Of a stretch of 64,000 nt of DNA, positions 37,390 through 56,744 are shown piece by piece (positions within the stretch are counted from its first letter, which is position 1; every line of letters begins with the position of its first letter). The notes under the pieces are model-generated. The model ran no database searches. It was given only the letters and a program-made list of their open reading frames with translations, and had not been told where the DNA came from. Source of the DNA: Parablautia sp. Marseille-Q6255 (lineage in GTDB: Bacteria > Bacillota > Clostridia > Lachnospirales > Lachnospiraceae); contig NZ_CATNVD010000016.1 of NCBI RefSeq assembly GCF_951230155.1, positions 1 through 64,000 of the forward strand, in the 5' to 3' direction. The translations under genes and the position numbers were made by a program.

Positions 37390-37404
37390 AGTCTGAGTGA
37401 TAGA

Positions 37405-37704: not shown

Positions 37705-37807
37705 TGCTGTAACTTTTCCGAGACATAATTATACATAACCTAAATAATTTACAAGCAATAATAGTACTCTCTAAAATAGTTAATGCTTAAACTTAAATAG
37801 GAACACA

Positions 37808-39580: not shown

Positions 39581-39696
39581 ATTTTATCCTCTATAGTTTC
39601 CGCTAGTTAAACGAGTATCCATTCCTATATTTATAGTATAATGAAATATTCTATATCATTCAACATATAATTACATTACACAACAATATAGCAAGC

Positions 39697-39782
39697 ACTG
39701 CCGGTGTCATGACAACCGGCTTATTTCCATTGCCCGCCCTCCTGCTCGATTTATGGAAATAGATCAGGGAAGTTTCCCTGGC
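39697..39782. other. Candidate origin of transfer (oriT)
   Basis: Three inverted repeats are packed upstream of mobC: GCCGGT/ACCGGC (39700-39720), TTTCCAT/ATGGAAA (39724-39759, with GC-rich CCCGCCCTCCTGC between) and CAGGGAA/TTCCCTG (39765-39780). A cluster of hairpins immediately upstream of MobC and relaxase genes is the usual oriT layout. The nick site itself is not assigned. The rest of the 400-base gap 39581-39988 is AT-rich. Confidence 0.6.
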
Positions 39783-39988
39783 CCTCTCTGTTTTTTCTGT
39801 TTTTTCTGATTTTTCTGATTTTATTTTTTCTTCACTTGACTGTATTCCGATGCTTTGCTACAATTGTGCATGGACAAATATGCCCAAACAACCGAACATA
39901 AAGTTATCATACTGTTGTAAACCGAACAAGTTGCAACAGTTTTTTTGTACCTTTTTTACCTGCTCAAAAAAAGAAATGAGGAATGAAA

Positions 39989-40330
39989 ATGGCAGAAAGA
40001 ATACGTAAACACCCCGTACAATTTTACCTTAACGATGACGAACAATACATCCTGAATGAAAAATTCCGACTTTCCAGAATGAAAAGTAAATCCGCATTTC
40101 TCCGGAAACTGGTGCTTTATGGTTTTGTCTATGATGTGGACTACTCCCACATCCGGGAAATGAATGCCTTGCTTGGCAACATTGGAAGCAATCTGAACCA
40201 GATTGCCAAACGAGTGAACAGCACAAATACCATTTACAAAAAAGATATGAAAGAGATAAAGGAGTTGATGAATCAGATATGGCAGTTACAAAAATCCATG
40301 GTATCAAAGCAACCGTTGATAAAGCAATAG
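39989..40330 (+). CDS. mobC: MobC-like relaxosome accessory protein
   Basis: A 113-residue basic protein. It begins with a ribbon-helix-helix-like part (HPVQFYLNDDEQYILNEKFR, KSKSAFLRKLVLYG) and ends with the MobC signature region NALLGNIGSNLNQIAKRVNS. It would bind oriT and help the relaxase nick DNA. I chose the ATG at 39989, seven bases after GAGG; an ATG two codons earlier is too close to the ribosome site. It overlaps the relaxase gene by 52 bases. Confidence 0.9.
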   Translation: MAERIRKHPVQFYLNDDEQYILNEKFRLSRMKSKSAFLRKLVLYGFVYDVDYSHIREMNALLGNIGSNLNQIAKRVNSTNTIYKKDMKEIKELMNQIWQLQKSMVSKQPLIKQ

Positions 40331-41685
40331 AATATATCTGCAATCCGGTCAAGACTAATGAACAGATTTATGTCTCATCTTTCGCCTGCTCACCGGAGAC
40401 TGCAGCTTTAGATTTTAAGTACACATTGGACCATGCACGTGAACAGCTTCTTTCTGATGGGCAAATCAGAGAAAATAAGGCTTTTCATCTAATACAGGCC
40501 TTTTCTCCGGGAGAGATTCCCCCTAAAGAAGCACATACCATTGGAAAAGAATTAGCAGACCAACTTCTAGAAGGAAAATACTCTTATGTACTGACCACTC
40601 ACATTGATAAAGGTCATGTACACAATCATCTGATATTCTGTGCTGCTGACAATATTGATCACAACCACTATCACGACTGCAGAAAAAATTACTGGTACAT
40701 CCGAAAACTTAGTGACAGATTATGTACAGAACACGGTCTTTCCGTCATCAAATATTCAGAAAATCGTGGCATGAAATACAATGAATGGTCTGCTAATCAA
40801 AATGAAAAAGGCTGGAAAACTCAAATACGAAAGGATATTAATCAGGCAATTAAAGCATCTTCCACTTATAATGATTTTATCGCACTGATGAATGCCAAAG
40901 GCTATGAAATGAAAAACACTTCGCTGAATGAAAGCGGTGGTAAATATATCGCTTTCCGTCCTGCAGGCAAAGATCGCTTTGTTCGGGGCAGTTCCAAATC
41001 ATTGGGTGGAAATTTTACAAAAGAGCGGATTAAAGAACGAATAGAAAACAAAAAAGAACGAAGAAGCCTATTTACCCAATCTAACCAAATGAGCCAACTT
41101 ATCGACACAACCACAGATGCAACAAAGATTTCTGAAAACATTGGCTTGAGGAAATGGGCTACCAAAGAAAATCTGAAAATTGCTGCCCACACATACAGTA
41201 TCATGAATTCTAAAAACATTCATAATTTTGCAGAATTGAATGAGCGTATCAATGCTCTGAAAAAACAAACCCAGACAGCCAACATCAGTATCATTTCCAT
41301 TGAACACCAGCTCCGGGAGCTGTCCGAAATTATCAAATTTACAGAACAGTATCACGAAAATAAGCCTTATAATGACCGCTATGAAAAAGTGAAAGACAAA
41401 GACAAATTTCTACGTAAATATGAATCACAAATTATTCTTTTTGCCGGTGCGGAACATATGCTCCAACATATGGGAATTGACTCTCAGCATATGAAACTGG
41501 AAAATATGAAAAAACTGTACGACGATCTGAATTTACGGAAGAAACAATTATCTTCACAACATAAAACATCTGCAAGCAGTTTAAAAGAATTAGAACAGAT
41601 AAAAAGAAATATGGAAGAGTATCTCCAAATTTCTCCACAGGATCAGGAAAAACCTTTTGTTTCAAATTCTGTACATGAGTTATGA
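40279..41685 (+). CDS. Relaxase / mobilization nuclease (MobA/VirD2-like)
   Basis: A 468-residue relaxase. The metal-binding three-histidine motif appears as HIDKGHVHNHLIFC, with a second part NIDHNHYHDC. The tyrosine candidate lies near the N-terminus in AIEYICNP. The second half is helical and coiled (about 300-450) and would bind partner proteins. It would nick oriT and pilot the strand into a recipient using the conjugation machinery of a helper. It overlaps mobC by 52 bases. Length and motif order look intact. Confidence 0.93.
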   Translation: MAVTKIHGIKATVDKAIEYICNPVKTNEQIYVSSFACSPETAALDFKYTLDHAREQLLSDGQIRENKAFHLIQAFSPGEIPPKEAHTIGKELADQLLEGKYSYVLTTHIDKGHVHNHLIFCAADNIDHNHYHDCRKNYWYIRKLSDRLCTEHGLSVIKYSENRGMKYNEWSANQNEKGWKTQIRKDINQAIKASSTYNDFIALMNAKGYEMKNTSLNESGGKYIAFRPAGKDRFVRGSSKSLGGNFTKERIKERIENKKERRSLFTQSNQMSQLIDTTTDATKISENIGLRKWATKENLKIAAHTYSIMNSKNIHNFAELNERINALKKQTQTANISIISIEHQLRELSEIIKFTEQYHENKPYNDRYEKVKDKDKFLRKYESQIILFAGAEHMLQHMGIDSQHMKLENMKKLYDDLNLRKKQLSSQHKTSASSLKELEQIKRNMEEYLQISPQDQEKPFVSNSVHEL

Positions 41686-42404: not shown

Positions 42405-42932
42405 CTACACGGACTCATCTCTTGTATGTGGAAATAATTTTGCAAAAGGGATGCTGACTGCTATCAGTTCTAATCCTAAAATAACCACATGATTCGAAAA
42501 CTTTTCAAGCGGATTAAACAGAAGAAGTAATGCTAGCGTGATTCGTACCAAAAATTCTATCATTGGTATAACACAATTATTATTTCTACAAAAGAACTGC
42601 CTAATTGCCGCATTCAATGATTTAGATGCCTTTCTTATACCGATAATTGCCCAAGTAATTCCTAATGCCTCCAACGAACTGGATCCTTTCAGCAGAAATG
42701 CAACCCCCATAATAAACATCATAATACTATATGCTAATTCGTCAGCCTGCTTTTCAAAAAACTTTTTTTCCTTAAAATAGCTTACTAACATCAGAGTACC
42801 TACAAGTACCATAGCACTTCCTAATAAATAAGGTAACAGAAGAGTTACTCTATCAGAAAACAATATACAGATTAATCCTAGAGCTGGAAACAATATACTC
42901 TTGACTTTTAATATTCTATTCATTTTTCTCAT
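42405..42932 (-). CDS. DUF308 / HdeD-like membrane protein
   Basis: A 175-residue membrane protein with about six hydrophobic helices in the two-by-three pattern of DUF308 (HdeD-like) proteins. Visible parts are LFPALGLICILFSDRVTLLL, PYLLGSAMVLVGTLMLVSYF and VRITLALLLLFNPLEKF. The first ATG overlaps the stop of the TVP38-type gene by four bases. The exact role of DUF308 proteins is unsettled; several are stress- or acid-linked. Two further DUF308 genes lie at 43686 and 51523. Confidence 0.75.
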   Translation of the reverse strand: MRKMNRILKVKSILFPALGLICILFSDRVTLLLPYLLGSAMVLVGTLMLVSYFKEKKFFEKQADELAYSIMMFIMGVAFLLKGSSSLEALGITWAIIGIRKASKSLNAAIRQFFCRNNNCVIPMIEFLVRITLALLLLFNPLEKFSNHVVILGLELIAVSIPFAKLFPHTRDESV

Positions 42933-43657
42933 TTCTCTCCTGTTCTTTTATTCATATAGTGTTTCAAGACTACAGTTCCGGCAGAAACCAAAATTCTTAA
43001 TAATAATACCATGATAAACTCTATTGAAAACGGATTGCTCAACTTAGTTCCAAGCAAAGTAGTAGTAACAATACTGAGCAAAGAACCGCTTATTCCTGCT
43101 GTCAGATAAGTGGTGAATTTCACTCCACAAGCGCCAAAATACAGGCTGACAATGTCACCTGGCAAAAATCCAACAATTCTGGTTATAAAGCATACAAAAA
43201 AAGCATTTTCATTCTGATATCCTGCCAATTGTTGAACCTTGGGATATCTAGTCCCAATATACTGTATAATATCCTCACCGCTGTATCTTCCGATCCAATA
43301 AGGAATTGTAATGGTTGTCGCCAATCCAACCATACTTACCATCACAGCTATAAATGGTGTAAACAGAACTCCACTGCTCAAATATAAAATCGACAATGGA
43401 AACATAATTGTAAGGCTTTTGAGAGCAAAGAACAAAACTAAAACACACGCAGCCAAAATCATATTTTCAGGTGTATACCTCAATATCGTTTTTACAGACA
43501 AAGGTTCTTCTGATTTTCTTACAATCACAAAAAAAATCAATGTCATCAGAATAATTGCTGCTAAAGGAGTGAGTTTCTTTAGCTTTATTTCTGACTTTTT
43601 CTCACTCTTTTGTTTTTTTTCTTTGTTTCTGATTTTCATCCAACTTTTCTCATTCAT
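42929..43657 (-). CDS. TVP38/TMEM64 (VTT domain) membrane protein
   Basis: A protein of about 242 residues with a basic, lysine-rich N-terminus and six or so membrane segments. The VTT/SNARE-associated domain is visible as LSSGVLFTPFIAVMVSMVGL, then YWIGRYSGEDIIQYIG and the F-x-x-R motif region FFVCFITRIVGFLPGDIVSL. Bacterial relatives of the DedA/VTT superfamily include lipid-flipping proteins, which fits the cardiolipin-synthase context. The start is ambiguous (43657 preferred over a GTG at 43669). It overlaps the next DUF308 gene. Confidence 0.85.
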   Translation of the reverse strand: MNEKSWMKIRNKEKKQKSEKKSEIKLKKLTPLAAIILMTLIFFVIVRKSEEPLSVKTILRYTPENMILAACVLVLFFALKSLTIMFPLSILYLSSGVLFTPFIAVMVSMVGLATTITIPYWIGRYSGEDIIQYIGTRYPKVQQLAGYQNENAFFVCFITRIVGFLPGDIVSLYFGACGVKFTTYLTAGISGSLLSIVTTTLLGTKLSNPFSIEFIMVLLLRILVSAGTVVLKHYMNKRTGEK

Positions 43658-43685
43658 AATTATAATCACAAGATATTTCTTATAT

Positions 43686-44282
43686 CTATTCGTCTATTAT
43701 ATTTCCATTTACTTCATCAAACACATCCTTCATTTCAAGAGCATATTTTTTACCTATTTTACTCAATCGGTATAATATAATAATGTCAATAATGCCATTT
43801 AAAATGAAGATAATTCCTGCCATTAATGCAGCGGCTGAAACTGTATCCGGTGAAAAGAACATCATACTAATTCCAGCCAGAATAATAATACATGATAGAA
43901 TAACATATGATGTACAGCGCACATGAAATATGTCTTTCATACAAACAGCCGTCTCCATACAGATTACTCCATTGATTATGATGAAAATACTAAACACGTA
44001 AGAAAACAACACTATTGTAATTCCAGCATGTGTAATGATAAAGATTCCCAAAATACATTTCAAAATGCCTTCAAATAACAATCCCTGCATAAAATAAGTA
44101 TTCAACCGAAATTTTAAATCATAGAACAAATCAAAAATCCCACTGCACAAAATCATAATACCTGCAATCACTGCAATCACTTTAAATGAATCATAGGGCT
44201 TTATTATGAATAAAACTCCAAGCAATACCGTCATGATTGCATTTATCCACATATCCAGCTTTATTTTTTTCAACGTTTTCAT
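43686..44282 (-). CDS. DUF308 / HdeD-like membrane protein
   Basis: A 198-residue protein with six hydrophobic helices: NAIMTVLLGVLFIIKPYDSF, KVIAVIAGIMILCSGIFDLF, LFEGILKCILGIFIITHAG, MMFFSPDTVSAAALMAGIIF and others. It ends in a charged cytoplasmic tail. The P-x-x-S/T after helix one and repeated G-I-x-x-L-x-G-I motif fit DUF308. It lies 28 bases before the TVP38-type gene and 64 bases after the phospholipase-D-type gene, suggesting one operon. Confidence 0.8.
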   Translation of the reverse strand: MKTLKKIKLDMWINAIMTVLLGVLFIIKPYDSFKVIAVIAGIMILCSGIFDLFYDLKFRLNTYFMQGLLFEGILKCILGIFIITHAGITIVLFSYVFSIFIIINGVICMETAVCMKDIFHVRCTSYVILSCIIILAGISMMFFSPDTVSAAALMAGIIFILNGIIDIIILYRLSKIGKKYALEMKDVFDEVNGNIIDE

Positions 44283-44346
44283 ATTTTACTCCTCCCAGTT
44301 TTAGTAAACTCTCACATTCATCAATAATATTTACTATTTCTGCTTT

Positions 44347-45723
44347 TTATAGCAAATGTCGAAACGGAATAATTAAAATGCGCAGGATTCCATAAAAAAT
44401 CCTTTTTCCTACACTCTGTTCTATTATTTGATAATTTTCTCCATCAATAATCGTTCCGTCCGGAGCAACTTGTCTACTTTTCAGTTTCAATTTCTCTGTA
44501 TGTCCACGGAGAGTTTCATTAAGTTCCTTGCATTCTATAAACAGCATCATTTCTGTATCAAGATACACACTCCTCATATCAAGATTGCAGGATCCTACTA
44601 TACTGAGCGTATCTCCTGCCAATACAGTCTTTGTATGTAATGCCTGGGTTCCAACATATTCATACACATAACTTCCTGTTTGCCTCACAGCTTTCTTCTG
44701 ATTCAAATAATCCGTACATCCGAAAGGATTGGCACCACTTTCTACCGCATTGATTATCAACTCTGTCTTCACACTTTTCGAACATATTGCTTTCAAATCA
44801 CCATACATTTTCTGATTGCATATAACATAAGGGGTTTGTATCACAATGTTGTCCGCTTCTTTCATCTTATTTACCATCCTGTCCCAAACCTGTGGCTGTT
44901 TATTATACGGATCTAAAGGGTTGGTGCAAAGTTCAATACTTTCTGTCTCAATCGTTTCTTCAAACCAATCGATTTCACAAAAAGCTTCTGGATATTTTTC
45001 TCTGACTTCCTGATAGTGTTCTCTTAATCTGCCATTAATTCCTTCATGTTTTCCAGACATTCTACAGCAGGAAAGATTCCATATATTTTTGAAATAATCT
45101 TGAATCTGATTGTAAGAATTACCCTCACCCGGAACCGTTTCATAGACCAGAATATCCCTATCCTCATTATATGAGTCGATATAATTACCAAGAAATAAAT
45201 CATCTGTGTTTCTTCCGCCAAGGATATATGCAAAATCATCTGCAATCAAATATTTGTCATGCATTCTGTAATTATTTTTCCACGGTTTTATCAGCGTAAT
45301 AGGATTGTATAGCTTAACCTCCACATTTTCATGCGACGTAAGTTCCCGAAAATTTCTACTTCCTCTCAAATATAATGTTCCATTTATGCCATCAACTAAT
45401 ATCTGAACCTTTACACCTCTATCTGCAGCATTTAATAGTGCAGCCATCATATCCTGACCACTGTTATCGTCACGAAAATCAAAAGTTGCAAGCACGATAT
45501 TTTCTTTTGCCGATTCGATTAAACGGAGCCGCCACACCAACGCATCCACATTATTTTCTATATTTAATATCCTCTCCTGTCCAGCCATATTTAACGCCCT
45601 TTCACACTCTCTGTTTTCTTCATCAGCTCGTTTGTGATACAGCGGCGGGATCACCAGACATACTATCAAATAAAAGAACCATATTCTCAAAATACCTTTT
45701 ATCATCTTTCCGAATTTTTTCAT
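44347..45723 (-). CDS. Phospholipase D-like / cardiolipin synthase-type protein
   Basis: A 458-residue protein with an N-terminal membrane helix (RIWFFYLIVCLVIPPLY) and two PLD domains. The first HKD motif is MHDKYLIADDFAYILGGRN; the second is LHTKTVLAGDTLSIVGSCN. Both have the H-x-K-x4-D core, so the enzyme should be active on phospholipids, perhaps making or remodelling cardiolipin. I preferred the ATG at 45723; the frame runs on to 45819 without a ribosome site. It is divergent from the TetR gene, which may control it. Confidence 0.85.
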   Translation of the reverse strand: MKKFGKMIKGILRIWFFYLIVCLVIPPLYHKRADEENRECERALNMAGQERILNIENNVDALVWRLRLIESAKENIVLATFDFRDDNSGQDMMAALLNAADRGVKVQILVDGINGTLYLRGSRNFRELTSHENVEVKLYNPITLIKPWKNNYRMHDKYLIADDFAYILGGRNTDDLFLGNYIDSYNEDRDILVYETVPGEGNSYNQIQDYFKNIWNLSCCRMSGKHEGINGRLREHYQEVREKYPEAFCEIDWFEETIETESIELCTNPLDPYNKQPQVWDRMVNKMKEADNIVIQTPYVICNQKMYGDLKAICSKSVKTELIINAVESGANPFGCTDYLNQKKAVRQTGSYVYEYVGTQALHTKTVLAGDTLSIVGSCNLDMRSVYLDTEMMLFIECKELNETLRGHTEKLKLKSRQVAPDGTIIDGENYQIIEQSVGKRIFYGILRILIIPFRHLL

Positions 45724-45793
45724 TATTCTACACCATTGTATCCTTCGACATTTTATGCTACGATATAAAAAAACAAAAAGCGAGTTGATATAT
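45724..45793. promoter_or_regulatory. Divergent promoter region between TetR and PLD-type genes
   Basis: This 70-base gap separates two divergent starts. On the plus strand TTGTAT and TACGAT are spaced by 17 bases. It is the natural site for TetR autoregulation and control of the PLD-DUF308-TVP38-DUF308 operon. I saw no clear palindrome. Confidence 0.4.
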
Positions 45794-46357
45794 ATGAACC
45801 ATACAAAATCTGCCATCATAGATGCTTTCTGGCAGTTGTTGGAAGAACGTCCCTACACCAAGATTACTGTAAGGGATATCGTAGAACTCTGCCAAGTCAA
45901 TCGAAACACCTTTTACTATCATTTTCATGACATTCCTGAGCTTCTGGAAACTACGATAAAATCTGATGTAGATCAAATCATCCAGACTAACGGACATTTT
46001 GGTTCACCGACGGATTGCTTGATTCCAATTGTTGAGCGTTGCTTAAAACGTAAAAAAGCCATGCTCCATATATACCGTTCTGTGAAACGAGATATATTCC
46101 AAAGCGAATTAGAAAGAATCATACTCTACACAGTAACTCAATATGTACATACTGTTACCAAAGATTTGAATATTCCTTCTGAAGATAAAACTATCCTAAT
46201 ACAGTACTATAAATGTTGCCTTCTTGGATACACATTAGATTGGCTGGACAAAAACATGAACTTTGACCTTTTGAAGTCAGTTACTCGTATTACTGATTTG
46301 ATTGGAGATTCTTTGAAGCAGGCATTTCTTGAATTGTCCGAATCTTCAAGGACATAA
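45794..46357 (+). CDS. TetR/AcrR family regulator
   Basis: A 187-residue regulator. The N-terminal HTH has the TetR pattern PYTKITVRDIVELCQVNRNT followed by FYYHFHDIPELL. The C-terminal ligand domain is helical (LKRKKAMLHIYRSVKRDIF, CCLLGYTLDWLDKNM). It resembles the second TetR gene at 62249, notably in the HTH and the YK-x-x-x-x-G-x-x-LDW segment. The ATG at 45794 is supported by family start position. It lies between two minus-strand lipid gene groups and probably senses a lipid-type signal. Confidence 0.85.
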   Translation: MNHTKSAIIDAFWQLLEERPYTKITVRDIVELCQVNRNTFYYHFHDIPELLETTIKSDVDQIIQTNGHFGSPTDCLIPIVERCLKRKKAMLHIYRSVKRDIFQSELERIILYTVTQYVHTVTKDLNIPSEDKTILIQYYKCCLLGYTLDWLDKNMNFDLLKSVTRITDLIGDSLKQAFLELSESSRT

Positions 46358-46371
46358 TACCCGATTAGATT

Positions 46372-46401
46372 GAGCACCGCTTCAACTTGACGGTGCTCTT
46401 T
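46372..46401. terminator. Terminator between convergent TetR and cardiolipin synthase genes
   Basis: GAGCACCG (46372-46379) pairs with CGGTGCTC (46391-46398) across an 11-base loop, followed by TTTACA on the plus strand. Confidence 0.75.
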
Positions 46402-47932
46402 ACATTAGTGGGGCAAATATTCTCAAGATTTCCTGAAATACCCTTATTGGCAACCTTTCTATACACTCTTCTAATGTAATCTGCGTGCACTCATTCAATG
46501 TATCAAAATAATCTTTTTTAATTTGTAATACTGCCTTACTGTTATACATCCATACTCCACATTCGAAATGCAGATAGAGGCTTCTAAAATCTAAATTCGT
46601 TGTTCCTACAGTCGCTATCTGGTCATCGGAAACAAATATTTTAGAATGCATAAATCCTTTTGAATATTCATATATTTTCACACCACCATATATCAATTCC
46701 CTGTAAAATGATCGTGTAGTCAAATGAATCAAGGCCTTGTCATAAATATGAGGAGTGATAATCCGCACATCTACACCGCTTTTAGCCGCTAAGCACAATG
46801 CAGATACCATGCTGTCATCGACAATCAAATATGGCGTACAGATATAGACATAATCCTTAGCATTATTTATAATCTGAAGATATACATGTTCTCCCACGTT
46901 TTCATTATCCACAGGACTATCCGAATAGGGTTGTACAAATCCATCTGATTCTATTCTTTCATCTACTTCATTTTTTGGGAAAAAGCACTCTATGTCATCT
47001 GGTATTCCACAACATAATTCCCACATTTCCAAAAACATTAATGTCAAACTCCATGCAGCTTTCCCTTTGATTTGTATAACTGCATCTTTCCAATACCCAT
47101 GTTTTTCATAAGTATTGATGTACTCATCAGACAGATTTAAGCCTCCAGTAAAAGCAACCTTCCCATCAATTACAGTAATTTTCCTATGATCCCGATTATT
47201 CTGAATAGCCGTAAGAACAGGACGAAATGGATTAAACACTTCACATTTAATACCAATATTTTTCAATTGCATCGCATAGTCTTTCGGTAGTGCGAGAAAA
47301 CATCCAATATCATCATAAATAACTCGCACCTCAACACCTTGAGAAACCTTTTCTTTCAAAATATCCAAAATAGACTGCCACATCAATCCTTCTTTTATAA
47401 TAAAGTATTCTATAAAAATATATTTTTGTGCCTTTTTCAATTCCTCCAGGAAAATAGGAAAAAATTTCTCTCCCGGCGAAAGGTACTCAGTCTGGGTATC
47501 ATCATAAACAGGAAAACCAGCATACTTTAGATACCGGATCTGTGGTATATGAGCAGGAGCCTCATAATATGCAGATTTTTCTGCACTTCCAGGTAATCCA
47601 TAAAGGGTTCTGTTCTTTTGTCCGATCTGAAATATTTTCTGTTCAAATTTTCTTGTAGATGCCTGAAAATTATATAAGATATACAACAGACTTCCAAACA
47701 ACGGAAACAATAAAATCAAAAAAATCCAGATTACTTTATTGGCCCCTTTGTCCTTTTTAGAAATGATATAAAGGACAAGAAACCCACTGATTATATGAAC
47801 AACGCTTCGTAATACTTGTGCAATAAAGCTTTCATTTTGAAAAATAAAGAACAAAAAGCAAAGTTGTAAAATCAACAAGAATAATACTTGTACTCGTCTC
47901 AAGAGCAATGCTCTAAACCATGAACGCTTCAT
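46400..47932 (-). CDS. cls: Cardiolipin synthase (bacterial PLD type)
   Basis: A 510-residue enzyme that joins two phosphatidylglycerols to cardiolipin. Two N-terminal membrane helices (VLFLLILQLCFLFFIF; VIWIFLILLFPLFGSLLYIL) precede two PLD domains. These carry NRDHRKITVIDGKVAFTGG and MHSKIFVSDDQIATVGTTN, both complete HKD motifs. The end RVFQEILRIFAPLM is family-typical. I chose ATG 47932 with GGGGA six bases upstream. DegV lies 17 bases before it, so both may be in the metK transcript. It is the second PLD-type synthase in the cluster. Confidence 0.94.
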   Translation of the reverse strand: MKRSWFRALLLRRVQVLFLLILQLCFLFFIFQNESFIAQVLRSVVHIISGFLVLYIISKKDKGANKVIWIFLILLFPLFGSLLYILYNFQASTRKFEQKIFQIGQKNRTLYGLPGSAEKSAYYEAPAHIPQIRYLKYAGFPVYDDTQTEYLSPGEKFFPIFLEELKKAQKYIFIEYFIIKEGLMWQSILDILKEKVSQGVEVRVIYDDIGCFLALPKDYAMQLKNIGIKCEVFNPFRPVLTAIQNNRDHRKITVIDGKVAFTGGLNLSDEYINTYEKHGYWKDAVIQIKGKAAWSLTLMFLEMWELCCGIPDDIECFFPKNEVDERIESDGFVQPYSDSPVDNENVGEHVYLQIINNAKDYVYICTPYLIVDDSMVSALCLAAKSGVDVRIITPHIYDKALIHLTTRSFYRELIYGGVKIYEYSKGFMHSKIFVSDDQIATVGTTNLDFRSLYLHFECGVWMYNSKAVLQIKKDYFDTLNECTQITLEECIERLPIRVFQEILRIFAPLM

Positions 47933-47949
47933 TTGATTCCCCACTTATT

Positions 47950-48813
47950 CTAAATTCTTATTTTTCTACTTATCCCCATACCGAAAGCCCCTGGTCCTAC
48001 ATGACAGCTGATACTGAAAGTCAGCGGATCGTATTTAACATCTTCCCAAGGAAACATCTCTTGGGCCATTTCCATCCATTCCTGATGTTCTTCTTTTTTT
48101 CCGAAGCTCCCTGCGACGCCAACATATATCTCATCACTATTTTTATGAAATTCATCTGCAATTGTTTTCATTTCCATAAGCAGACGCTTTTTACAGCTTT
48201 TTGTTCCACGAACTTTTGCATAGGCATCTAAACGTTCCCCGGCAATTACAAGCAGTGGTTTTATACTTAACAATGTGCCCATGGCAGCTCCCGCCGGAGT
48301 GACACGTCCTCCCATTTTCAAATATTCTAAGGTTTCCACGCCTACATAGACAATGGATTCATAAGCAGTTTGTTCTAAGGCTTCTTTTATTTCTTTTGCA
48401 GAACACCCTTTTTCTTTCAACATCAGTGCATCCAACACGGACTGCCTCTGGGTGACAGAAATGCGATGATTATCAACCACCTGTACTTTTTCTTCATAAT
48501 CCTGTGCCAGTACCTGAGCTGTTTGACAGGAACCACTAAGTCCGCTGGACATTGGAATATATACAAGCTCATCATATTCGGATAAGAGCAGTTTATCCCA
48601 CATGTCTAAAACTTCTGCTGGTGAAGGCTGAGAACTAAAAACTTCTCTTTTTTCCTCAAGGCATTGATAAAACTCCTCATGAGTTAAATCAATGCCTTCA
48701 TAGTATGTTTTCCCTTCCAGAATCACCGGCATTGGAATGACATGGACACCTAGAATCTTTCCTTCTTCTTCAAAGATCCCACTGTTGCTGTCTGTTACAA
48801 TCGCAACATTCAT
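47950..48813 (-). CDS. DegV family fatty-acid-binding protein
   Basis: A 287-residue protein with the DegV start pattern VAIVTDSNSGIF and VHVIPMPVILEGKTYYEGID. The ligand-contact regions are SSQPSPAEV, PMSSGLSGSCQTA and GGRVTPAGAA. DegV/FakB proteins hold a fatty acid and present it to the FakA kinase, so host or dietary fatty acids enter phospholipid synthesis. No fakA gene is in this window. The ATG at 48813 has AGGAGG upstream. Its place between metK and cls supports a lipid role for the cluster. Confidence 0.92.
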   Translation of the reverse strand: MNVAIVTDSNSGIFEEEGKILGVHVIPMPVILEGKTYYEGIDLTHEEFYQCLEEKREVFSSQPSPAEVLDMWDKLLLSEYDELVYIPMSSGLSGSCQTAQVLAQDYEEKVQVVDNHRISVTQRQSVLDALMLKEKGCSAKEIKEALEQTAYESIVYVGVETLEYLKMGGRVTPAGAAMGTLLSIKPLLVIAGERLDAYAKVRGTKSCKKRLLMEMKTIADEFHKNSDEIYVGVAGSFGKKEEHQEWMEMAQEMFPWEDVKYDPLTFSISCHVGPGAFGMGISRKIRI

Positions 48814-48844
48814 CTCATAATCCTCCTGTGCCATTTTTATACTA

Positions 48845-50038
48845 TTACAAATATTTCTTTAATTCATTTACTTTATCCAGCCTTTCCCATGGAAGATCCA
48901 AATCTTCTCTTCCAAAATGTCCATAAGCAGCTGTCTGTCTGTAAATAGGTCTTCTTAAAGTCAATTCTTTGATAATACCAGCTGGGCGGAAATCAAAGTT
49001 CTCTCTTACAATCTCCGTAATTCTCTCATCTGAAAGTTTTCCTGTTCCAAACGTGTCCACCATAATTGAGGTAGGCTGTGCTACACCAATAGCATAGGAA
49101 AGCTGCACCTCACATTTTTCAGCCAACCCTGACGCTACAATGTTTTTTGCCGCATAACGGGCCGCATATGATGCAGAGCGATCTACCTTAGTACAGTCCT
49201 TTCCCGAAAAAGCTCCACCACCATGCCGCGCATATCCTCCATATGTATCTACAATAATCTTACGGCCTGTCAATCCACTGTCTCCATGCGGTCCACCTAT
49301 TACAAAACGGCCTGTTGGATTGATATAGAATTTTGTATTCTCGTCCACCATTCCACCAGGCAGGATTTCGTCAAACACATATTTTTTAATATCCAACTGA
49401 ATCTGTTCCTGTGTTATTTCCGGATCATGCTGTGTAGAAAGCACTACGGCATCCAGTCTGAGTGGTTTGTCCTTTTCATCATATTCTACAGTTACCTGGG
49501 TTTTTCCATCTGGTCTCAAATATGGAAGTATTCCTTCTTTTCGTACTTTTGTCAGCTGCAATGCCAGCTTATGTGCAAGCTCAATGGGATAGGGCATATA
49601 CGTCTTAGTCTCATTCGTCGCATATCCAAACATCATCCCCTGATCTCCGGCTCCGATGGCTTCAATCTCTTCATCCGACAAATTATGTTCTTTTGCCTCA
49701 AGAGCCTTATCCACACCCATTGCTATATCTGCCGACTGTTCATCAATGGCTGTTAACACACCACAGGTATCTGCATCAAAACCATACTCTGCATTTGTAT
49801 ATCCAATTTCCCTGATTGTATCTCGAACCACCTTCTGGATATCTACATATGCATTGGAAGTAATTTCTCCCATTACCATAACAAGACCCGTAGTCGTTAC
49901 CGTCTCACACGCCACCCGGCTCATAGGATCCTGCTTCAACAATTCATCCAGCACGGCATCTGAAATAGCATCACACATTTTATCTGGATGCCCTTCTGTG
50001 ACAGACTCCGATGTAAAAAATCGTTTACTTTTATTCAT
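48845..50038 (-). CDS. metK: S-adenosylmethionine synthetase
   Basis: A 397-residue enzyme making SAM from methionine and ATP. Visible motifs are [20 protein letters not shown] at the N-terminus, the signature [12 protein letters not shown], and the P-loop-like [16 protein letters not shown]. The length is normal. AAAGGAAA precedes the ATG. It lies 72 bases after the radical SAM gene, with no S-box leader between them. The pairing suggests that SAM supply is tied to that enzyme, or that this is a second metK copy; the window cannot decide. Confidence 0.97.
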
Positions 50039-50110
50039 TTTTCATTTCCTTTCATCTTTTTTCCGATTACCTGAATAAATACTTTGATATTCAAATTCAT
50101 AGTTGTTTCT

Positions 50111-51466
50111 TTAATTTGCGATTCCCTTTTTCGCTCTGTTCTCTTTCCAAAGTTCATCTGCAACTGGCTTCCAATTCTTCGCATACTGGTCACATTTTGC
50201 ACAAAGATGTTCTGCTGTTTCTGGAGATTGAAGATCTGTTGAGTGAGCTCCTGATTTTTCAACCATTGCGCGAAGCTTGTCAGGATTTTCCAGCATAGGA
50301 CACGGACGAAGCATATTATCATTAAATGGCTGATTATCATGGTAAGCCATCATCATCGGTGACTGCAGTGCTTCCAGAAGCGTCTTTTCCCGAATATTAG
50401 AATCTGAATAATGGATAAATACGCAAGGATCGATATTACCGTTAGCATTAATATGTAAGTAGCGATGACCACCAGCGATACATCCACCAACATATTCTGC
50501 ATCATTCTGAAAATCCAGTGCAAATAATGGCTTTGTGGCACGATAACGACGGATTTTCTCATAAACTCCGGTACGCTGCTGCGGTGTAGGCATCAACTCT
50601 GGAACAGCATCGTTTCCTACCGGCATATAATGGAAATACCATACAAAATAGGCGCCCATTTCAATCAATGTATCATAGAATTCCTCTGATGTAATTGAAT
50701 CATAATTGGCACTGGTATAGCAGCAAGAAATTCCATAAATCAGTTTCTTTCTTCTGAGAAGTTCCATGGCTTTACGTACTTTCTGATATACACCAGCTCC
50801 ACGTCGTCCATCAGTTGCCTCTTCAAATCCTTCCAGAGAAATGGCTGGTACAAAATTACCTACACGGAGCATTTCATCCGCAAATTCTTCGTCAATCAAT
50901 GTTGAATTTGTAAAGCAAAGGAATACGCAATCCGAATGCTTTTCACAGATCCGAATCAAGTCTTTTTTACGGACCAGCGGCTCCCCACCAGTGTAAATGT
51001 ACAAATAAACGCCCAATTCTTTTCCCTGGCAGATAATATCATCAATCTCATCATAAGTAAGATTTAATTTGTGTCCATATTCCGCTGCCCAACAACCAGT
51101 ACAGTGCAGATTACAGGCCGATGTGGGATCCAGAAGGATAGCCCATGGAATATTACAGTTATACTTCTTTCTCAGTTCTTCTTCCTTTTTCCAGCCAACC
51201 AGACTGGCATTAATAAAAAGATTCACGGCAAGTGTCTTAGTCACATTGGGATCTACCTCTTTAAAAAGACGGCGGATATAGCTATAATAAGGATGTTCCG
51301 GATCTGTAATTGCTTCCCGAATAATTTTTCTCTGAGAAATAAATTCACCATCAGCAAATTTGTCCGCCCAGTCCATCATCTTCGGCATATGCTTATCCGG
51401 ATCCTTGTAAATATAATTGAATGTCTGCTCAATTCCCAGTTTCTTTAAAGTATTTGATGCGTTCAT
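50111..51466 (-). CDS. Radical SAM enzyme with SPASM-like C-terminus, substrate unknown
   Basis: A 451-residue protein. An N-terminal helical region of about 105 residues (KMMDWADKFADGEFISQRK, YSYIRRLFKEVDPNVTKTLA) precedes the radical SAM core with the cluster motif DPTSACNLHCTGCWAAEYG (C-x3-C-x2-C) and YTGGEP. Further Cys pairs at the end (GGCIAGGH, IDPCVFIHYSDSN, RPCPMLEN, HLCAKCDQY) suggest auxiliary clusters. No peptide substrate gene is nearby. Its neighbours are DUF308, metK, DegV and cardiolipin synthase, so a lipid substrate is an attractive inference. AGGAGG is present. Confidence 0.88.
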   Translation of the reverse strand: MNASNTLKKLGIEQTFNYIYKDPDKHMPKMMDWADKFADGEFISQRKIIREAITDPEHPYYSYIRRLFKEVDPNVTKTLAVNLFINASLVGWKKEEELRKKYNCNIPWAILLDPTSACNLHCTGCWAAEYGHKLNLTYDEIDDIICQGKELGVYLYIYTGGEPLVRKKDLIRICEKHSDCVFLCFTNSTLIDEEFADEMLRVGNFVPAISLEGFEEATDGRRGAGVYQKVRKAMELLRRKKLIYGISCCYTSANYDSITSEEFYDTLIEMGAYFVWYFHYMPVGNDAVPELMPTPQQRTGVYEKIRRYRATKPLFALDFQNDAEYVGGCIAGGHRYLHINANGNIDPCVFIHYSDSNIREKTLLEALQSPMMMAYHDNQPFNDNMLRPCPMLENPDKLRAMVEKSGAHSTDLQSPETAEHLCAKCDQYAKNWKPVADELWKENRAKKGIAN

Positions 51467-51522
51467 AATAGAGTTCCTCCTAAGATTTTATATTTGTTAA
51501 TAATAAATTTTACTTAAACATG

Positions 51523-52107
51523 CTATTCTTCCCAGTCAGTATCTTCCTCGTTCTTTTCCTGTCCTTGGATTTGTTTTGCAATCTTCACCGTCTCCTTGAC
51601 CGTGAGATGGTTCATGAGACCTTCTGCAAAGAAACCGCATCCGATAATGACATGACTGATCTGACTTTCCTGAAACGGCTTTATTATAATTAAGATCCCA
51701 AAAGCAGCTACAATGATGGAAAGTGTCAATATCCATTTCCATATTTCAAGTCCAAATACTTTTGCGTCTTTTGCAGTCTGAACTTTTAATACAGCATCAA
51801 GCAAAATCAACAATCCAAGTCCTGGTGAAAGATATGAACGGATACGCAAATTGCATCCAAGCACTATCACACCAAGCACTATCAGGAATATTCCACAAGC
51901 CAGATCATATTGGAAAGCCAGATCATACAAATCATCTGAAAGATATCCAATAATCTTAACAATTCCATAGGCAACTAATATGATGCCCCCTGTGATACAT
52001 AGCACCAGTGGGGATATAGATGGTATTGTCATACATACGATTCCAGCTATATAGAAAATAATTGAAATCAAAACATACCCATCTCTTGCCATACGAATCT
52101 TTTTCAA
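51523..52107 (-). CDS. DUF308 / HdeD-like membrane protein
   Basis: A 194-residue protein with six hydrophobic helices (YVLISIIFYIAGIVCMTIPS, PLVLCITGGIILVAYGIVKI, IFLIVLGVIVLGCNL and others) and an acidic C-terminal tail. I preferred the TTG at 52107, eight bases after GGAGG; an ATG five codons upstream overlaps the ribosome site. It lies 56 bases before the radical SAM gene and probably opens that operon. It is the third DUF308 member of the cluster. Confidence 0.78.
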   Translation of the reverse strand: MKKIRMARDGYVLISIIFYIAGIVCMTIPSISPLVLCITGGIILVAYGIVKIIGYLSDDLYDLAFQYDLACGIFLIVLGVIVLGCNLRIRSYLSPGLGLLILLDAVLKVQTAKDAKVFGLEIWKWILTLSIIVAAFGILIIIKPFQESQISHVIIGCGFFAEGLMNHLTVKETVKIAKQIQGQEKNEEDTDWEE

Positions 52108-52250
52108 TATTTTCACCTCCATTCTCTTTTTCTTACCTAAATTCTACATACTATTTCATTCTTCTTCTATGGGCAAACGTCTTCTATATATCCAAAAACT
52201 AGGCAATCTTAACATGTTTGTCTGGATTCATTCAAAGTCCTAAATTAATA

Positions 52251-52294
52251 AAAGCTTCCCATTGCCGATATAAGTTTCGACAATGGGAAGCTTT
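52251..52294. terminator. Strong terminator-like hairpin
   Basis: AAAGCTTCCCATTG (52251-52264) pairs perfectly with CAATGGGAAGCTTT (52281-52294). It lies in the 600-base stretch between the DUF308 and hydrolase genes and would end transcription from the hydrolase side. Confidence 0.75.
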
Positions 52295-52715: not shown

Positions 52716-53642
52716 TCAAATTATATTTGCATCCATAAATGCAATAACCCCAGCTTCTACTTCGTCTTTAATCTCCGTATAGTTTAGAATTTCATGACGA
52801 TAACCAGGATAGAGTTTTGTTGTAACACGATGTCCCGTAGAACGTAGCCAATTAGCGACCTCGTATACCCCCTCTCCGTATTCGCCAACTGGATCCATAT
52901 CACCTGCAATGTTATAAATTGGGAGCTCCGTTGGGATTTTTTCAGCCCATTCTTTCCCAGTGATTACATCCATTAACTGTGTAAAATTATACAAAGATTG
53001 ATTATTTGTCGGTTTAGTAAATGCGTCAAAAGGATCGTCCGCATGATCCTGTTGCACATATTCACTATGACAAATCCACTCATTTCCAAGTTTTATTTCT
53101 CCACAATATTCGCACATCCATCCCAGTAATATATTTACAATAGAGGGATCTGCTTCTTTGCCTTTTCCTTCATCAATCAATTTTTTCAAAAATTTGGCAC
53201 TTTCTGCAGAATGACGGAATACACCACATGTGCCACAAATTATCAGTCCATCAAGTTCAGTTCCATATTTCGACGCATAGTCTCTTGCAATCATAGATCC
53301 CATGCTATGTCCGAATAAAAAATATGGAAGCTTTGGATATTTCTCTTTAACAAGAGTTGTAAGGGTATATTCGTCTTCCATCATAGTATGAGCACCTTTG
53401 TCGCCCCAATCTCCCCATGTATTGTTTTCCAATGCCGTTTTACCATGTCCTACATGGTCATCAGCAGCAACAATATAGCCTGCATCCATAAATTTTACAA
53501 TCAAATGTAGATAACGTCTAGAATGCTCTCCAAAACCATGGATTATTTGAACGATTCCTTTTGGCTTTGTGGCTGGAACATAAATCCAACCATAAACTTG
53601 ATCTCTTTCGTTAAAGGATTGAAATTTTACTTCGTGTAACAT
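52716..53642 (-). CDS. Alpha/beta hydrolase, monoacylglycerol lipase-like
   Basis: A 308-residue Hydrolase_4 protein with IIHGFGEHSRRYLHLIVKF, the elbow GHSMGS (Ser), GDMDPVGEYG (Asp) and GYRHEILNY (His), so the triad is complete. It has no signal peptide. The ATG at 53642 has GGAGG nine bases upstream. It directly follows dhaK and gldA on the same strand, 45 bases after the kinase stop. This suggests that the glycerol released by acylglycerol cleavage feeds those two enzymes. It is a paralogue of 5031 and 62977 but the most divergent of the three. Confidence 0.85.
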   Translation of the reverse strand: MLHEVKFQSFNERDQVYGWIYVPATKPKGIVQIIHGFGEHSRRYLHLIVKFMDAGYIVAADDHVGHGKTALENNTWGDWGDKGAHTMMEDEYTLTTLVKEKYPKLPYFLFGHSMGSMIARDYASKYGTELDGLIICGTCGVFRHSAESAKFLKKLIDEGKGKEADPSIVNILLGWMCEYCGEIKLGNEWICHSEYVQQDHADDPFDAFTKPTNNQSLYNFTQLMDVITGKEWAEKIPTELPIYNIAGDMDPVGEYGEGVYEVANWLRSTGHRVTTKLYPGYRHEILNYTEIKDEVEAGVIAFMDANII

Positions 53643-53687
53643 ACACACACACCTCCATTAAAACTTATTAATGCCATTCCTTTTTAT

Positions 53688-55439
53688 TCAAAATACAAGT
53701 GTATTCTTCAAATCTGTAAATATCACACCAAGAGCATACGCGCCTGCATCTGGATATCCAATACTTCTATCACCAACAGTACCTGCACGTCCCATTCTTG
53801 CCGCAATTGTCTCTGTAGCTTTTGCGCCTTGCACTGCTGCCTGCGCTGCTTGTGTAAAAGCATGTTCGAATGTTTCTTTTTTATTTGCACAAGTTGCCCA
53901 AGTATCTGCACACGGGACCAACGCATCAATCAGCGTTTTATCACCCACTACTGCACCTCGTCCAAAAGAATATTCTCCCGTTTTCTGGATTCCTGCTACT
54001 GCCGCCTGCATCATATCCGCAAATTCTAAAATCTCCAGCTCTGTTTTTCCATCTGTCATTTTTCCTGCTGCTCGGAATGCAGAACCCCAGATTGGTCCGG
54101 ACGCCCCTCCACAATGTTCCATAATCACCAATGAACACGCCTGAAGAAATTCTCCTATACTGGATGTATGCTCTTTCGTAAGTTCTTTCCACTCTTTCTT
54201 AAGCTGACGAAATCCTTTTGCCACACTCATTCCAAAATCTCCATCACCGGCATGGGAATCAAGTTCACAGAATGGAACCTCATTTTTGATAATGCAGTGG
54301 CTCATGGTGTCTACCATATAAACGATATTTTCTAGTGTAACTTTTTCATTGTTTACTTCTGCACAAGCTTTATATGGTTCTTCTATCAAATCCTCTTCTT
54401 TTTTACATTCAAGTGTCTCTTCCTCAAGTACAATTTCCGGAACATGCCCCTTTACAGAAAATGCCGGCGCTTCCGATTCTTGATCTAAAAGTTCTTTTAA
54501 TTCTGCATTCATTTTCATAAAAGTTAAAGATGCTCCAAGCATATCAATACTTGTCATATAATTTCCTGCAAAGCTTCTGTAAATACGTATTTTCTTTTCG
54601 CGAAGCACCTTTGCTACTGCATAATTAAAAAGATACAACTCCTGTAAGGGAGTGCTTCCAAATCCATTCACCAGAACGGTCACTTCTTCTCCTTGAGTTA
54701 CATTTAATTCTGTTATCAATGCATCTGTCATTCTTTTAGCCAGCTCATCTGCCGAAGGAATGTTTTCCCTTTGAATTCCAGGTTCTCCGTGAATACCAAC
54801 GCCATACTCCATCTCATGTTCTTTTAATTCAAAGGTTGGAGTTCCTTTTGCCGGAACAGTACATGAACTCAGTGCAAATCCTATGCTTCGCACATTACTT
54901 ATTGCATTTTCCGCCGCAGTTTTCACCTGTTTCAGAGATCCTCCTTTTTCTGCTGCTGCACCTGCTATTTTATGTACTAGGACTGTACCTGCAACACCTC
55001 GCCTGCCTACCGTATAGAGGCTATCCTTAACAGCAATATCATCATCCACCTTTACATAATCTACTTGAATCCCATCTTCTTCTGCAAGGTGAGCTGCATT
55101 TTTGAAATTCATCATATCACCACTATAGTTCTTTATAATCAGAAGTGTACCCTTATCACCGGCAGTTTCCTTAATCGCTTGATACACCTGAATCTGAGAC
55201 GGTGACGCAAAAACATCTCCGCAAACAGCCGCATCCAGCATTCCCTTCCCCACAAATCCTGCGTGTGCCGGTTCGTGACCACTTCCCCCACCACTAATCA
55301 GGCTAACCTTCTTTTTATCAAGAGTTTTTTTTCGAATAATCTTGTATTTTTTTATAAATTCCAAATCCGGATTTGTTAAAGCAAGTCCTTTACACATTTC
55401 TTCCACAACTGTTTCCGGACGGTTAATGATTTTTTTCAT
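53688..55439 (-). CDS. dhaK: Dihydroxyacetone kinase, fused DhaK-DhaL (ATP-dependent type)
   Basis: A 583-residue single-chain kinase. The DhaK half (1-330) has SGGGSGHEPAHAGFVGKGML and the substrate-binding histidine in YGVGIHGEPG. The DhaL half (about 375-583) has the Mg-ADP motif LDSHAGDGDFG and GASGPIWGSAFRAAG. Fusion of both halves is typical of ATP-dependent kinases, as opposed to PTS-dependent DhaKLM. It phosphorylates dihydroxyacetone made by the glycerol dehydrogenase encoded 18 bases upstream. AGGAGG precedes the ATG. No DhaM gene is present. Confidence 0.95.
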   Translation of the reverse strand: MKKIINRPETVVEEMCKGLALTNPDLEFIKKYKIIRKKTLDKKKVSLISGGGSGHEPAHAGFVGKGMLDAAVCGDVFASPSQIQVYQAIKETAGDKGTLLIIKNYSGDMMNFKNAAHLAEEDGIQVDYVKVDDDIAVKDSLYTVGRRGVAGTVLVHKIAGAAAEKGGSLKQVKTAAENAISNVRSIGFALSSCTVPAKGTPTFELKEHEMEYGVGIHGEPGIQRENIPSADELAKRMTDALITELNVTQGEEVTVLVNGFGSTPLQELYLFNYAVAKVLREKKIRIYRSFAGNYMTSIDMLGASLTFMKMNAELKELLDQESEAPAFSVKGHVPEIVLEEETLECKKEEDLIEEPYKACAEVNNEKVTLENIVYMVDTMSHCIIKNEVPFCELDSHAGDGDFGMSVAKGFRQLKKEWKELTKEHTSSIGEFLQACSLVIMEHCGGASGPIWGSAFRAAGKMTDGKTELEILEFADMMQAAVAGIQKTGEYSFGRGAVVGDKTLIDALVPCADTWATCANKKETFEHAFTQAAQAAVQGAKATETIAARMGRAGTVGDRSIGYPDAGAYALGVIFTDLKNTLVF

Positions 55440-55457
55440 ACTTCATTCCTCCTATCC

Positions 55458-56591
55458 TTAACAATTGCGTGTTTTGTATTCTTTTCCAATAGAATCTGCC
55501 AGTTTAATTGCTGCAGCAACCTTTTCCACTGTAACAGGGAATGGCATTGCATAAATAGATTCTTCTGGAATACAAGCCTTTTCTGCCACTTGATATAACT
55601 CTTCTTCTGTGATGTTATTCACTCCAATATCCTCCAAGCAAACCGGAAGTCCAATGGATAAACAGAACTCAAGAACTTCTTCTATTTCTTCCATAGGCGC
55701 ATTTTCAAGCGCAAGCTGTGCTATAGTTCCGAAAGCTACCTTTTCACCATGAAAATATTTATGTGTCCCCTCTAAGATTGTAAGTCCATCATGGATAGCA
55801 TGAGCTGCTGCCAAACCGCCACTCTCAAATCCAAGTCCAGAAAGTAAAATATTGGTCTCAATTATCTTTTCCAGGGATTCTGTTACCACATGATTTTCGC
55901 ATGCAAGCTTTGCTTTCCATCCATCTTCTAAAAGAGATTCATAACAAAGGGAGGCTAACGCAAATGCAGCCTTTGTCCCTCTTGCTTCACCACACACGCC
56001 TTCACGAAAGCCACATGGAAGTCCTGCATTAACTCTTGAATATGATTGTACATTAGCACGTGCTTCGAAAAATGTAGATAATGCATCTCCCATTCCTGAT
56101 ACCAAAAAGCGAACAGGCGCGTTGGCAATTACCGTAGTATCAATTAAAATCACGCTTGGGCTCTGTTTGAAATATGCATAATCATCAAAGGCACCTTCTG
56201 GAGTATATAAAACTGCTGAATGACTGGTTGGTGCATCCGTAGCTGCAATGGTAGGAACAATGATCAGATTTTCTCCCTCTGCCACACACTTTGCTGTATC
56301 AATGGCTTTTCCTCCCCCTAGACCGATGGTACATGTGCAATTACTTTCTTTTGCCAGTTCCTGTAATCTAGAAACTTCTCTTCTTGAACATTCTCCACAG
56401 AATTCACTTTCCACAAAACGAATATTGAATTTTTCTGCAGTACGCTTTAATTTGTCCCCTACTCTTTTTACATCATCCGGATGAGCAATCAAAAGCGCTG
56501 AATCCCCAAATGTTTTTACAAAATAACCAAGATTTAAAATCTCATCTTCTCCCTGTACATATTTTGTTGGACAGATAAATGCTTTTCTCAC
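55458..56591 (-). CDS. gldA: Glycerol dehydrogenase (Fe/Zn alcohol dehydrogenase family)
   Basis: A 377-residue NAD-dependent enzyme oxidising glycerol to dihydroxyacetone. Visible are the NAD loop TIGLGGGKAIDTAKCVAEG, PTIAATDAPTSHSAVLY, and the metal ligands in VSGMGDALSTFFEA (Asp), AAAHAIHDGL (His) and KYFHGEKVAFGT (His). The start is a GTG at 56591 with GGAGGAAA upstream. It is the first gene of the gldA-dhaK-hydrolase operon. The PocR-AraC regulator gene upstream on the same strand is the likely activator. Confidence 0.95.
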   Translation of the reverse strand: MRKAFICPTKYVQGEDEILNLGYFVKTFGDSALLIAHPDDVKRVGDKLKRTAEKFNIRFVESEFCGECSRREVSRLQELAKESNCTCTIGLGGGKAIDTAKCVAEGENLIIVPTIAATDAPTSHSAVLYTPEGAFDDYAYFKQSPSVILIDTTVIANAPVRFLVSGMGDALSTFFEARANVQSYSRVNAGLPCGFREGVCGEARGTKAAFALASLCYESLLEDGWKAKLACENHVVTESLEKIIETNILLSGLGFESGGLAAAHAIHDGLTILEGTHKYFHGEKVAFGTIAQLALENAPMEEIEEVLEFCLSIGLPVCLEDIGVNNITEEELYQVAEKACIPEESIYAMPFPVTVEKVAAAIKLADSIGKEYKTRNC

Positions 56592-56744
56592 AATAATTTC
56601 CTCCTTCTTTCACCGTTTTTTGATAGCATTATCTTATTATATATTTCCGCTAATTTCTGCGTGATTATAAATCTTGTTTTTGTATTTTTTGCTATTACTT
56701 TTTTGCTTTATCGCTTTTCAATTGCACTTTTATGATAAATTGTA

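Follow-up and report, generated by a model that had tools for sequence, protein, structure and literature searches.

A radical SAM protein of Parablautia sp. Marseille-Q6255 as a probable Mss-type lipid tail-coupling enzyme inside an apparently transferable fatty-acid gene module

What does a radical S-adenosylmethionine (SAM) enzyme do among genes for membrane lipids? This question is raised by the first 64,000 nucleotides of contig NZ_CATNVD010000016.1 of Parablautia sp. Marseille-Q6255 (Lachnospiraceae; assembly GCF_951230155.1), hereafter the window, in which a gene for a radical SAM/SPASM protein of 451 amino acids (50111-51466, minus strand) is the second of five closely spaced genes, following one for a DUF308 membrane protein and preceding metK, a DegV family gene and a cardiolipin synthase (cls) gene. 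The initial annotation had placed the protein in a candidate lipid-modifying system that might join acyl tails. Taken as a whole, this interpretation is partly supported by our analysis, and the protein is probably an Mss-type lipid tail-coupling enzyme that belongs to a transferable fatty-acid module.

The gene families that recur beside this enzyme were determined by their distance from it. After 180 loci had been examined, six without a called radical SAM gene were dropped (174 left) and 17 were removed as redundant at 90% identity; the remaining 157 loci, the window included, were searched by tblastn for genes near the enzyme (within 2.5 kb, 736 kb examined) and far from it (4-9 kb, 870 kb examined). 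The p-values are descriptive, because the neighbour classes were picked after clustering of the neighbours and no correction was applied. DegV proteins were near at 16 loci and far at one (p 3.6e-5), DUF308 proteins near at 12 and far at one (p 6.4e-4), and LPG_synthase_TM proteins near at nine and far at none (p 8.9e-4). Genes for TetR-type regulators, the commonest near class counted, formed two clusters with 28 near versus 4 far and 22 near versus 3 far (by gene position in the same loci). The enrichments of these four classes would survive correction for the number of classes; their recurrence as near neighbours supports the proposed lipid role of the enzyme, and DUF308 proteins, proposed from the outset as membrane partners, are frequent neighbours indeed. 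Furthermore, metK and MntP were each near at four loci and far at none (p 0.044), VTT proteins near at five and far at one (p 0.075, not significant alone), oleate hydratase near at four and far at one, the latter being the window itself (p 0.14), and patatin near at two and far at none (p 0.21). The near/far counts of the control genes were 1/0 for DhaK (the window), 1/1 for GlgB and 0/0 for GldA.

Counts by gene position relied on longest-open-reading-frame gene calls, which missed genes (e.g., oleate hydratase in L043), and were repeated by tblastn for this set. By gene position, near/far values were 5/1 for DUF308 (p 0.098), 3/0 for oleate hydratase (p 0.094), 4/1 for VTT (p 0.18), 3/0 for patatin (p 0.094) and 1/1 for PLD (p 1), and ABC ATPases, response regulators and MATE proteins showed no enrichment near the enzyme. 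The link to cardiolipin synthase and PLD-type proteins, which the initial annotation had drawn, did not hold up: tblastn found these at two loci near and at two far (p 0.62), and, as neither count gave an enrichment, Cls/PLD was rejected as a conserved partner. A further protein, of 230 amino acids and with a weak helix-turn-helix match, occurs in 12 of the 157 loci (e.g., L138:7471-8166), near in 11 and far in none; it adjoins the enzyme, mostly directly downstream.

The radical SAM protein consists of an N-terminal helical part (residues ~1-102), a radical SAM core (PF04055, 64.5 bits) with C118, C122 and C125, and a reduced SPASM-like C-terminal part, whose match to PF13186 is marginal (23.4 bits, cut-off 21.5). 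The three cysteines of the CX3CX2C motif and the auxiliary cysteines C329, C348 and C389 are invariant in 72 of 72 aligned relatives, and the latter three may together bind one cluster. The invariant auxiliary cysteines are thus three single residues and not the extra pairs described earlier; the pair C422/C425 is cysteine in just 26 and 45 of the 72 proteins.

These features bear on whether the protein could be a SPASM maturase of the ribosomally synthesized and post-translationally modified peptide type, or a cofactor enzyme, that stands among lipid genes by accident. Its structure model (pLDDT, i.e., predicted local distance difference test, 91.4; N-terminal part helical) is indeed nearest to the solved folds of SkfB, SuiB and anSME, and SkfB ranked first in the profile search as well. 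Structure was rejected as a discriminator, as the listed matches all have the radical SAM fold; judging from the model, the fold by itself does not pick out lipid enzymes, and it resembles SPASM peptide maturases more closely than it does the archaeal tetraether synthase. However, identity to the SkfB, SuiB and anSME structures amounts to 17-20%, and the window protein has three invariant auxiliary cysteines, whereas SPASM maturases usually carry seven. Moreover, a close match to a known peptide or cofactor maturase was looked for and none was found: among the best 25 of 49 NCBIfam matches no cut-off was reached or even approached, NirJ2 being on top (73.6 bits, cut-off 500). PADLOC returned weak viperin matches only (31.3 and 30.9 bits). 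The absence of a peptide substrate gene, noted from the beginning, can be extended in one respect: the gaps in the order DUF308, radical SAM, metK, DegV and cls are 56, 72, 10 and 5 bp and leave no space for a precursor between these same-strand genes, while short open reading frames elsewhere were not searched. As DegV, DUF308, LPG_synthase_TM and TetR genes are also concentrated next to the gene, a function in peptide or cofactor maturation is highly improbable.

The joining of two tails by a carbon-carbon bond is the leading chemistry, as had been proposed, and this suggestion is supported by the comparison with Mss. Mss, the bacterial membrane-spanning lipid synthase, is reportedly a radical SAM protein with a described likeness to Tes, the archaeal tetraether synthase; its founding paper is that of Sahonero-Canavesi et al. 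2022. The window protein shares with Mss the same taxa and a strong homologue in a reported producer, the likeness being drawn from spread and from the available descriptions of Mss, of which the T. maritima enzyme is the tested representative. In the portions of the papers drawn on, Mss is named as the enzyme joining fatty-acid tails in bacteria (PMC13274423, PMC11868695, PMC11604127); C. subterraneus and M. thermoacetica are tabulated as Mss-bearing producers of iso-diabolic acid (PMC13274423, Table 1), 561 Lachnospiraceae species are tabulated with both Mss and Ger homologues (PMC13274423, Table 2), and Mss matches are given for Spirochaetota and Cloacimonadota (PMC11868695). The criterion used there is a BLASTP E value of at most 1e-30 with more than 30% identity to a known Mss (PMC13274423, PMC11868695). 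Taken relative to the window protein, and not to Mss, one of the two matches in C. subterraneus DSM 13054 passes these thresholds (48%, 2.6e-144); the other has 28% identity and an E value of 8.5e-8. The family is therefore present in a species reported, in the excerpts used, to make iso-diabolic acid, a comparison at species level, since the lipid data come from strain DSM 15729. Two strong homologues are present in Moorella mulderi, the published lipid data at hand concerning M. thermoacetica. Furthermore, the spread of the family agrees with the taxa published for Mss (Lachnospiraceae, Oscillospiraceae, Clostridiaceae, Erysipelotrichia, Tissierellia, Thermoanaerobacteraceae and others), as judged by eye from the best 80 of at least 599 stretches against the accessible part of Table 2 in PMC13274423; the families of two of these records were looked up, and others come from the tree listing.

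Mss is accordingly the best candidate by spread and descriptions, and the chemistry of the window protein is most likely of this known type. Tail coupling is also on record for Butyrivibrio, a genus of the Lachnospiraceae. Labelled palmitate was converted in Butyrivibrio fibrisolvens to two C16 acids coupled at the omega-1 position, and extracts as well as membrane-enriched preparations of Butyrivibrio and Sarcina showed the coupling activity, according to the portion of PMC8788747 consulted. Tes (GDGT-MAS) is described in the available parts of PMC9433317 and PMC8941075 as combining a rubredoxin and a [4Fe-4S]N domain at the N-terminus with a radical SAM CX3CX2C motif and an auxiliary cluster at the C-terminus. 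In contrast, the window protein has no cysteine before residue 104 and hence no rubredoxin or N-terminal cluster domain but a helical N-terminus instead, and its identity to Tes is 14%. Co-occurrence with PF09989 (PlsA/Ger-type) was dropped as uninformative: the domain is encoded in the genome of the window and in nine of 11 chosen genomes, but 148 of the 150 genomes from the window's family encode it as well.

The enzyme family is large. In the window's taxonomic family, 115 of the 150 genomes match the protein at E ≤ 1e-3 and 51 encode a near full-length relative with at least 48% identity; phylum-wide, 190 of 398 genomes match at 1e-25, with a best E value of at most 3e-84 in 178. A member at 1e-30 is present in 32 of 47 genomes of the window's genus. 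Several genomes carry two or three full-length copies, and the genome of the window itself has a second one (67% identical). In a quick tree of 159 proteins, the window copy groups with sequences of its own taxonomic family and with records named Faecalicatena and Eisenbergiella. A scan of named genomes, with a query headed by a sequence that comes from a different family of the phylum, listed among the best 80 of at least 599 stretches Caldanaerobacter subterraneus, Moorella mulderi, Thermoanaerobacter, Tepidanaerobacter, Caloramator, Pelotomaculum and Christensenella, besides several Oscillospiraceae and Lachnospiraceae, Spirochaetaceae and one Cloacimonadota genome. Relatives can also be found on IncF-type enterobacterial plasmids, namely Klebsiella pFF1023_1 (L248:5881-7182) and Escherichia albertii pEA5_1 (L249:2254-3633), from bat and bird sources; they are 39-40% identical to the window protein and 71% to each other, and the pEA5_1 relative had no megablast match among 20,395 E. 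coli records. On a rumen Methanosphaera plasmid, a 35% identical radical SAM protein (L250:5878-6963) is encoded directly after a TetR gene.

A true oleate hydratase of the MCRA family (60320-62101, minus strand; NF010584, 934.6 bits with a cut-off of 567; PF06100, 731.2 bits) is encoded 8.2 kb from the DUF308 gene of the operon, with a gene for a TetR-type regulator directly upstream (62249-62830, minus strand; TetR_C_8, 131.5 bits). With these two genes (60320-62830), the lipid block extends past the range initially annotated (42405-52107). The stretch between the hydratase gene and the radical SAM operon (52716-60001) encodes an alpha/beta hydrolase, dihydroxyacetone kinase, glycerol dehydrogenase, a PocR/AraC regulator and GlgB, and is missing from a near-identical contig of another genome (G118). 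In nine of 173 other loci, counted in the fetched stretches, oleate hydratase is encoded at most 0.9 kb from the radical SAM gene, adjacent to it or one gene off (L033, L043, L066, L209, L214, L215, L220, L234, L239), and none of the 173 has one at a greater distance. The nine include loci of Lachnospiraceae bacterium CE91-St56 (complete genome) and of the isolate Fournierella massiliensis An912. Across the 150 family genomes, 32 possess oleate hydratase, 17 of these also have the radical SAM family, and in three (G006, G061, G118) the two are neighbours. Among the papers listed for us from the openly licensed literature, none dealt with oleate hydratase together with this enzyme.

FakAB and oleate hydratase are systems for exogenous fatty acids. 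The window has a DegV/FakB-type protein and oleate hydratase in one region as these systems do, and adds to them a radical SAM enzyme and an extra metK. Such a gene set could also be read as a module for the detoxification of host or dietary acids, in which the enzyme isomerises, desaturates, methylates or internally cross-links single acyl chains of exogenous acids hydrated by the hydratase. The nine loci with a nearby oleate hydratase, including those of CE91-St56 and F. massiliensis, and the DegV/FakB and TetR neighbours fit this reading, and the two or three full-length copies in several genomes may mean more than one substrate. However, C. subterraneus, reported in the parts of the sources used as an iso-diabolic acid species, has a member of this family with the invariant cysteines, and its fetched stretch (L173) contains no oleate hydratase. 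We regard a modification of single chains as unlikely. It is improbable, too, that the enzyme acts on some other constituent of the membrane, be it a polyprenoid, a glycolipid or a lipid head group, with the fatty-acid genes standing beside it because of a shared regulation by membrane stress. The LPG_synthase_TM/flippase-like and VTT neighbours would also suit head-group or glycolipid traffic, and the weak NCBIfam matches of the protein include HpnH (40.5 bits, cut-off 225.05), a radical SAM enzyme that modifies isoprenoids; yet DegV and oleate hydratase indicate fatty acids, and none of the ten genes at 42405-52122 is for isoprenoid synthesis or lipid glycosylation.

The tail-coupling enzyme proposed here would thus be embedded in the following gene set. 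Positions and strands of all ten genes are as first annotated, and the assigned families were borne out by Pfam and NCBIfam profile scores. The operon on the minus strand is opened by the DUF308 gene (51523-52122; domain match) and continues after the radical SAM gene with metK for methionine adenosyltransferase (48845-50038; TIGR01034, 600.8 bits, cut-off 309.4), the gene for a DegV family, FakB-like and presumably fatty-acid-binding protein (47950-48834; TIGR00762, 223.8 bits, cut-off 99.7), which stays below the FakB1 equivalog NF038249 (124.8 bits, cut-off 350), and the cls gene (46400-47944; TIGR04265, 336.3 bits, cut-off 290). A TetR-type regulator with TetR_N and TetR_C_8 domain matches is encoded on the plus strand (45755-46357), followed on the minus strand by genes for a second PLD-type, cardiolipin-synthase-like protein (44347-45819; profile matches), a DUF308 membrane protein (43686-44282; domain match), a VTT-domain (TVP38-type) membrane protein (42929-43669; PF09335, 53.7 bits) and a further DUF308 membrane protein (42405-42932; domain match). 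Upstream of the operon there is a terminator-like hairpin of 18 pairs (52251-52294, minus strand); the scan found two such sites versus 4.0 expected in shuffles, i.e., no excess. The metK of the operon is a second copy in the genome, which supports the earlier idea that it supplies SAM; the other copy is 84% identical and is located two genes from gyrA/gyrB-like genes (G000:C2; gyr genes named by eye).

Conservation of the order DUF308-radical SAM-metK-DegV-cls across Lachnospiraceae was a check proposed in the initial annotation. The exact order is rare and does not form a conserved unit: among the mapped loci, it is confined to the window and the G118 contig, and the other loci carry subsets. 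In this sense, conservation of the neighbourhood extends in part to other genomes, with pieces of it recurring beside the gene. The G118 contig, which comes from another genus, has 96-97% DNA identity to the window segments 43820-44071, 45683-46846, 47878-52294 and 60320-62221, which are brought together there; its cls gene is truncated (142 amino acids), and one block of identity stops at the hairpin. Elsewhere, a 4.2-kb gene is 70% identical between the genome of the window and G118, versus 79% between the former and a genus mate, and this genus mate, G143, has no match. The high identity of the segments compared with 70% elsewhere and the lack of a match in G143 fit a recent transfer of the module; however, G118 is assembled in ~320 contigs, and this one, of 11 kb, may have been binned wrongly. 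Five of the oleate-hydratase loci (L043, L209, L214, L215, L234) fall into a single group when the radical SAM proteins are clustered at 90% identity, although their named records are titled Lachnospiraceae, Oscillospiraceae, Fournierella and Bacillota, which fits transfer as well. A megablast search of window positions 42000-63900 against plasmids gave no match.

The lipid cluster is adjoined by a stretch (32482-41685) that is a mobile element or its remains, with genes for a large serine recombinase (32482-34560; CcrB-like, 152.7 bits, below the cut-off of 900) and a MobA/VirD2 relaxase (40279-41685). Carriage of the lipid cluster by the adjacent relaxase element was considered; no boundary evidence ties the one to the other. 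Further away, the window encodes a complete type I Wadjet set (10702-17285; PADLOC scores of 818.8 bits for JetA, 306.4 for JetB, 1744.2 for JetC and 520.7 for JetD) and, close to it, a protein of 992 amino acids with PrimPol-like and helicase-like parts (18954-21932; PADLOC PrimPol, 186.4 bits).

In 14 loci (L047, L049, L055-L057, L062, L067, L130, L133, L148, L205, L207, L228, L229), the enzyme is accompanied by a paralogue of 337-353 amino acids without the CX3CX2C motif. The cluster of these proteins originally had 17 members, of which three that retain the motif were dropped. The paralogue gene is on the opposite strand in 12 of the 14 cases and lies within two genes of the enzyme in 13 and far from it in one. 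According to the alignment, the three radical SAM cysteines are missing from all 14 proteins and the three auxiliary positions are likewise free of cysteine, while the N-terminal part is retained; identity to the window protein is 17-26%. A profile of four of them aligned with the active family over 335 columns (E 1.1e-41), and two examples that were scanned reached no Pfam or NCBIfam cut-off. A structure model built from four sequences (pLDDT 65.9) was too poor and was not used. The genome of the window showed no such pseudo-paralogue, its two matches being the two active copies. In G022 and G073, the pseudo form is present without a strong active copy, which weighs against a strict partnership.

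From the genes, their distribution and neighbours, the cysteine pattern and the extra metK, we infer the following course of events. SAM and the [4Fe-4S] cluster of the enzyme would yield a 5'-deoxyadenosyl radical, which might abstract hydrogen from a membrane phospholipid, close to the methyl terminus of an acyl chain; two chains would then be linked by a carbon-carbon bond to give membrane-spanning lipids of the diabolic acid type. As in the mechanism reported for the archaeal tetraether synthase, the first chain could be kept as a carbon-sulfur intermediate on a second cluster, bound by C329, C348 and C389. The neighbours may constitute a regulated module for exogenous fatty acids: the hydratase would act on unsaturated acids, the DegV/FakB protein would pass acids to phospholipid synthesis, the Cls/PLD enzymes and the VTT and DUF308 membrane proteins would build and move phospholipids, the extra metK would maintain the SAM supply, and the TetR-type regulators would sense the acids. 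In its most far-reaching form, which we put forward tentatively and consider possible rather than probable, the proposal is that gut clostridia carry a horizontally transferable, TetR-regulated module for host or dietary fatty acids, of which the unsaturated ones are hydrated; the acids would be loaded into phospholipids and their chains then coupled to membrane-spanning lipids by an Mss-type radical SAM enzyme with its own SAM synthetase, and that in some relatives the dead paralogue, having lost the CX3CX2C loop and kept the N-terminal domain, serves as a partner or chain-positioning subunit.

As far as we looked, four things are new, namely the fatty-acid module and its apparent mobility, the additional metK copy and the pseudo-paralogue; the parts of the Mss papers drawn on do not mention the module seen in the window (oleate hydratase, FakB, extra metK, DUF308, TetR). 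The published Mss work used here, in the portions available, covers thermophiles, marine anaerobes and palaeoclimate lipids, and the species reported to have Mss homologues include hundreds from the Lachnospiraceae and Oscillospiraceae (PMC13274423, Table 2). The gene neighbourhood described above offers a testable role of the enzyme in gut-type bacteria, i.e., the handling of exogenous fatty acids, and names candidate partners for it: DUF308, FakB, oleate hydratase, LPG_synthase_TM and the extra metK. If this is true, gut bacteria may build bipolar membrane lipids from the fatty acids of host and diet, which would bear on the resilience of their membranes to bile and fatty acids and on the tracing of branched tetraether lipids.

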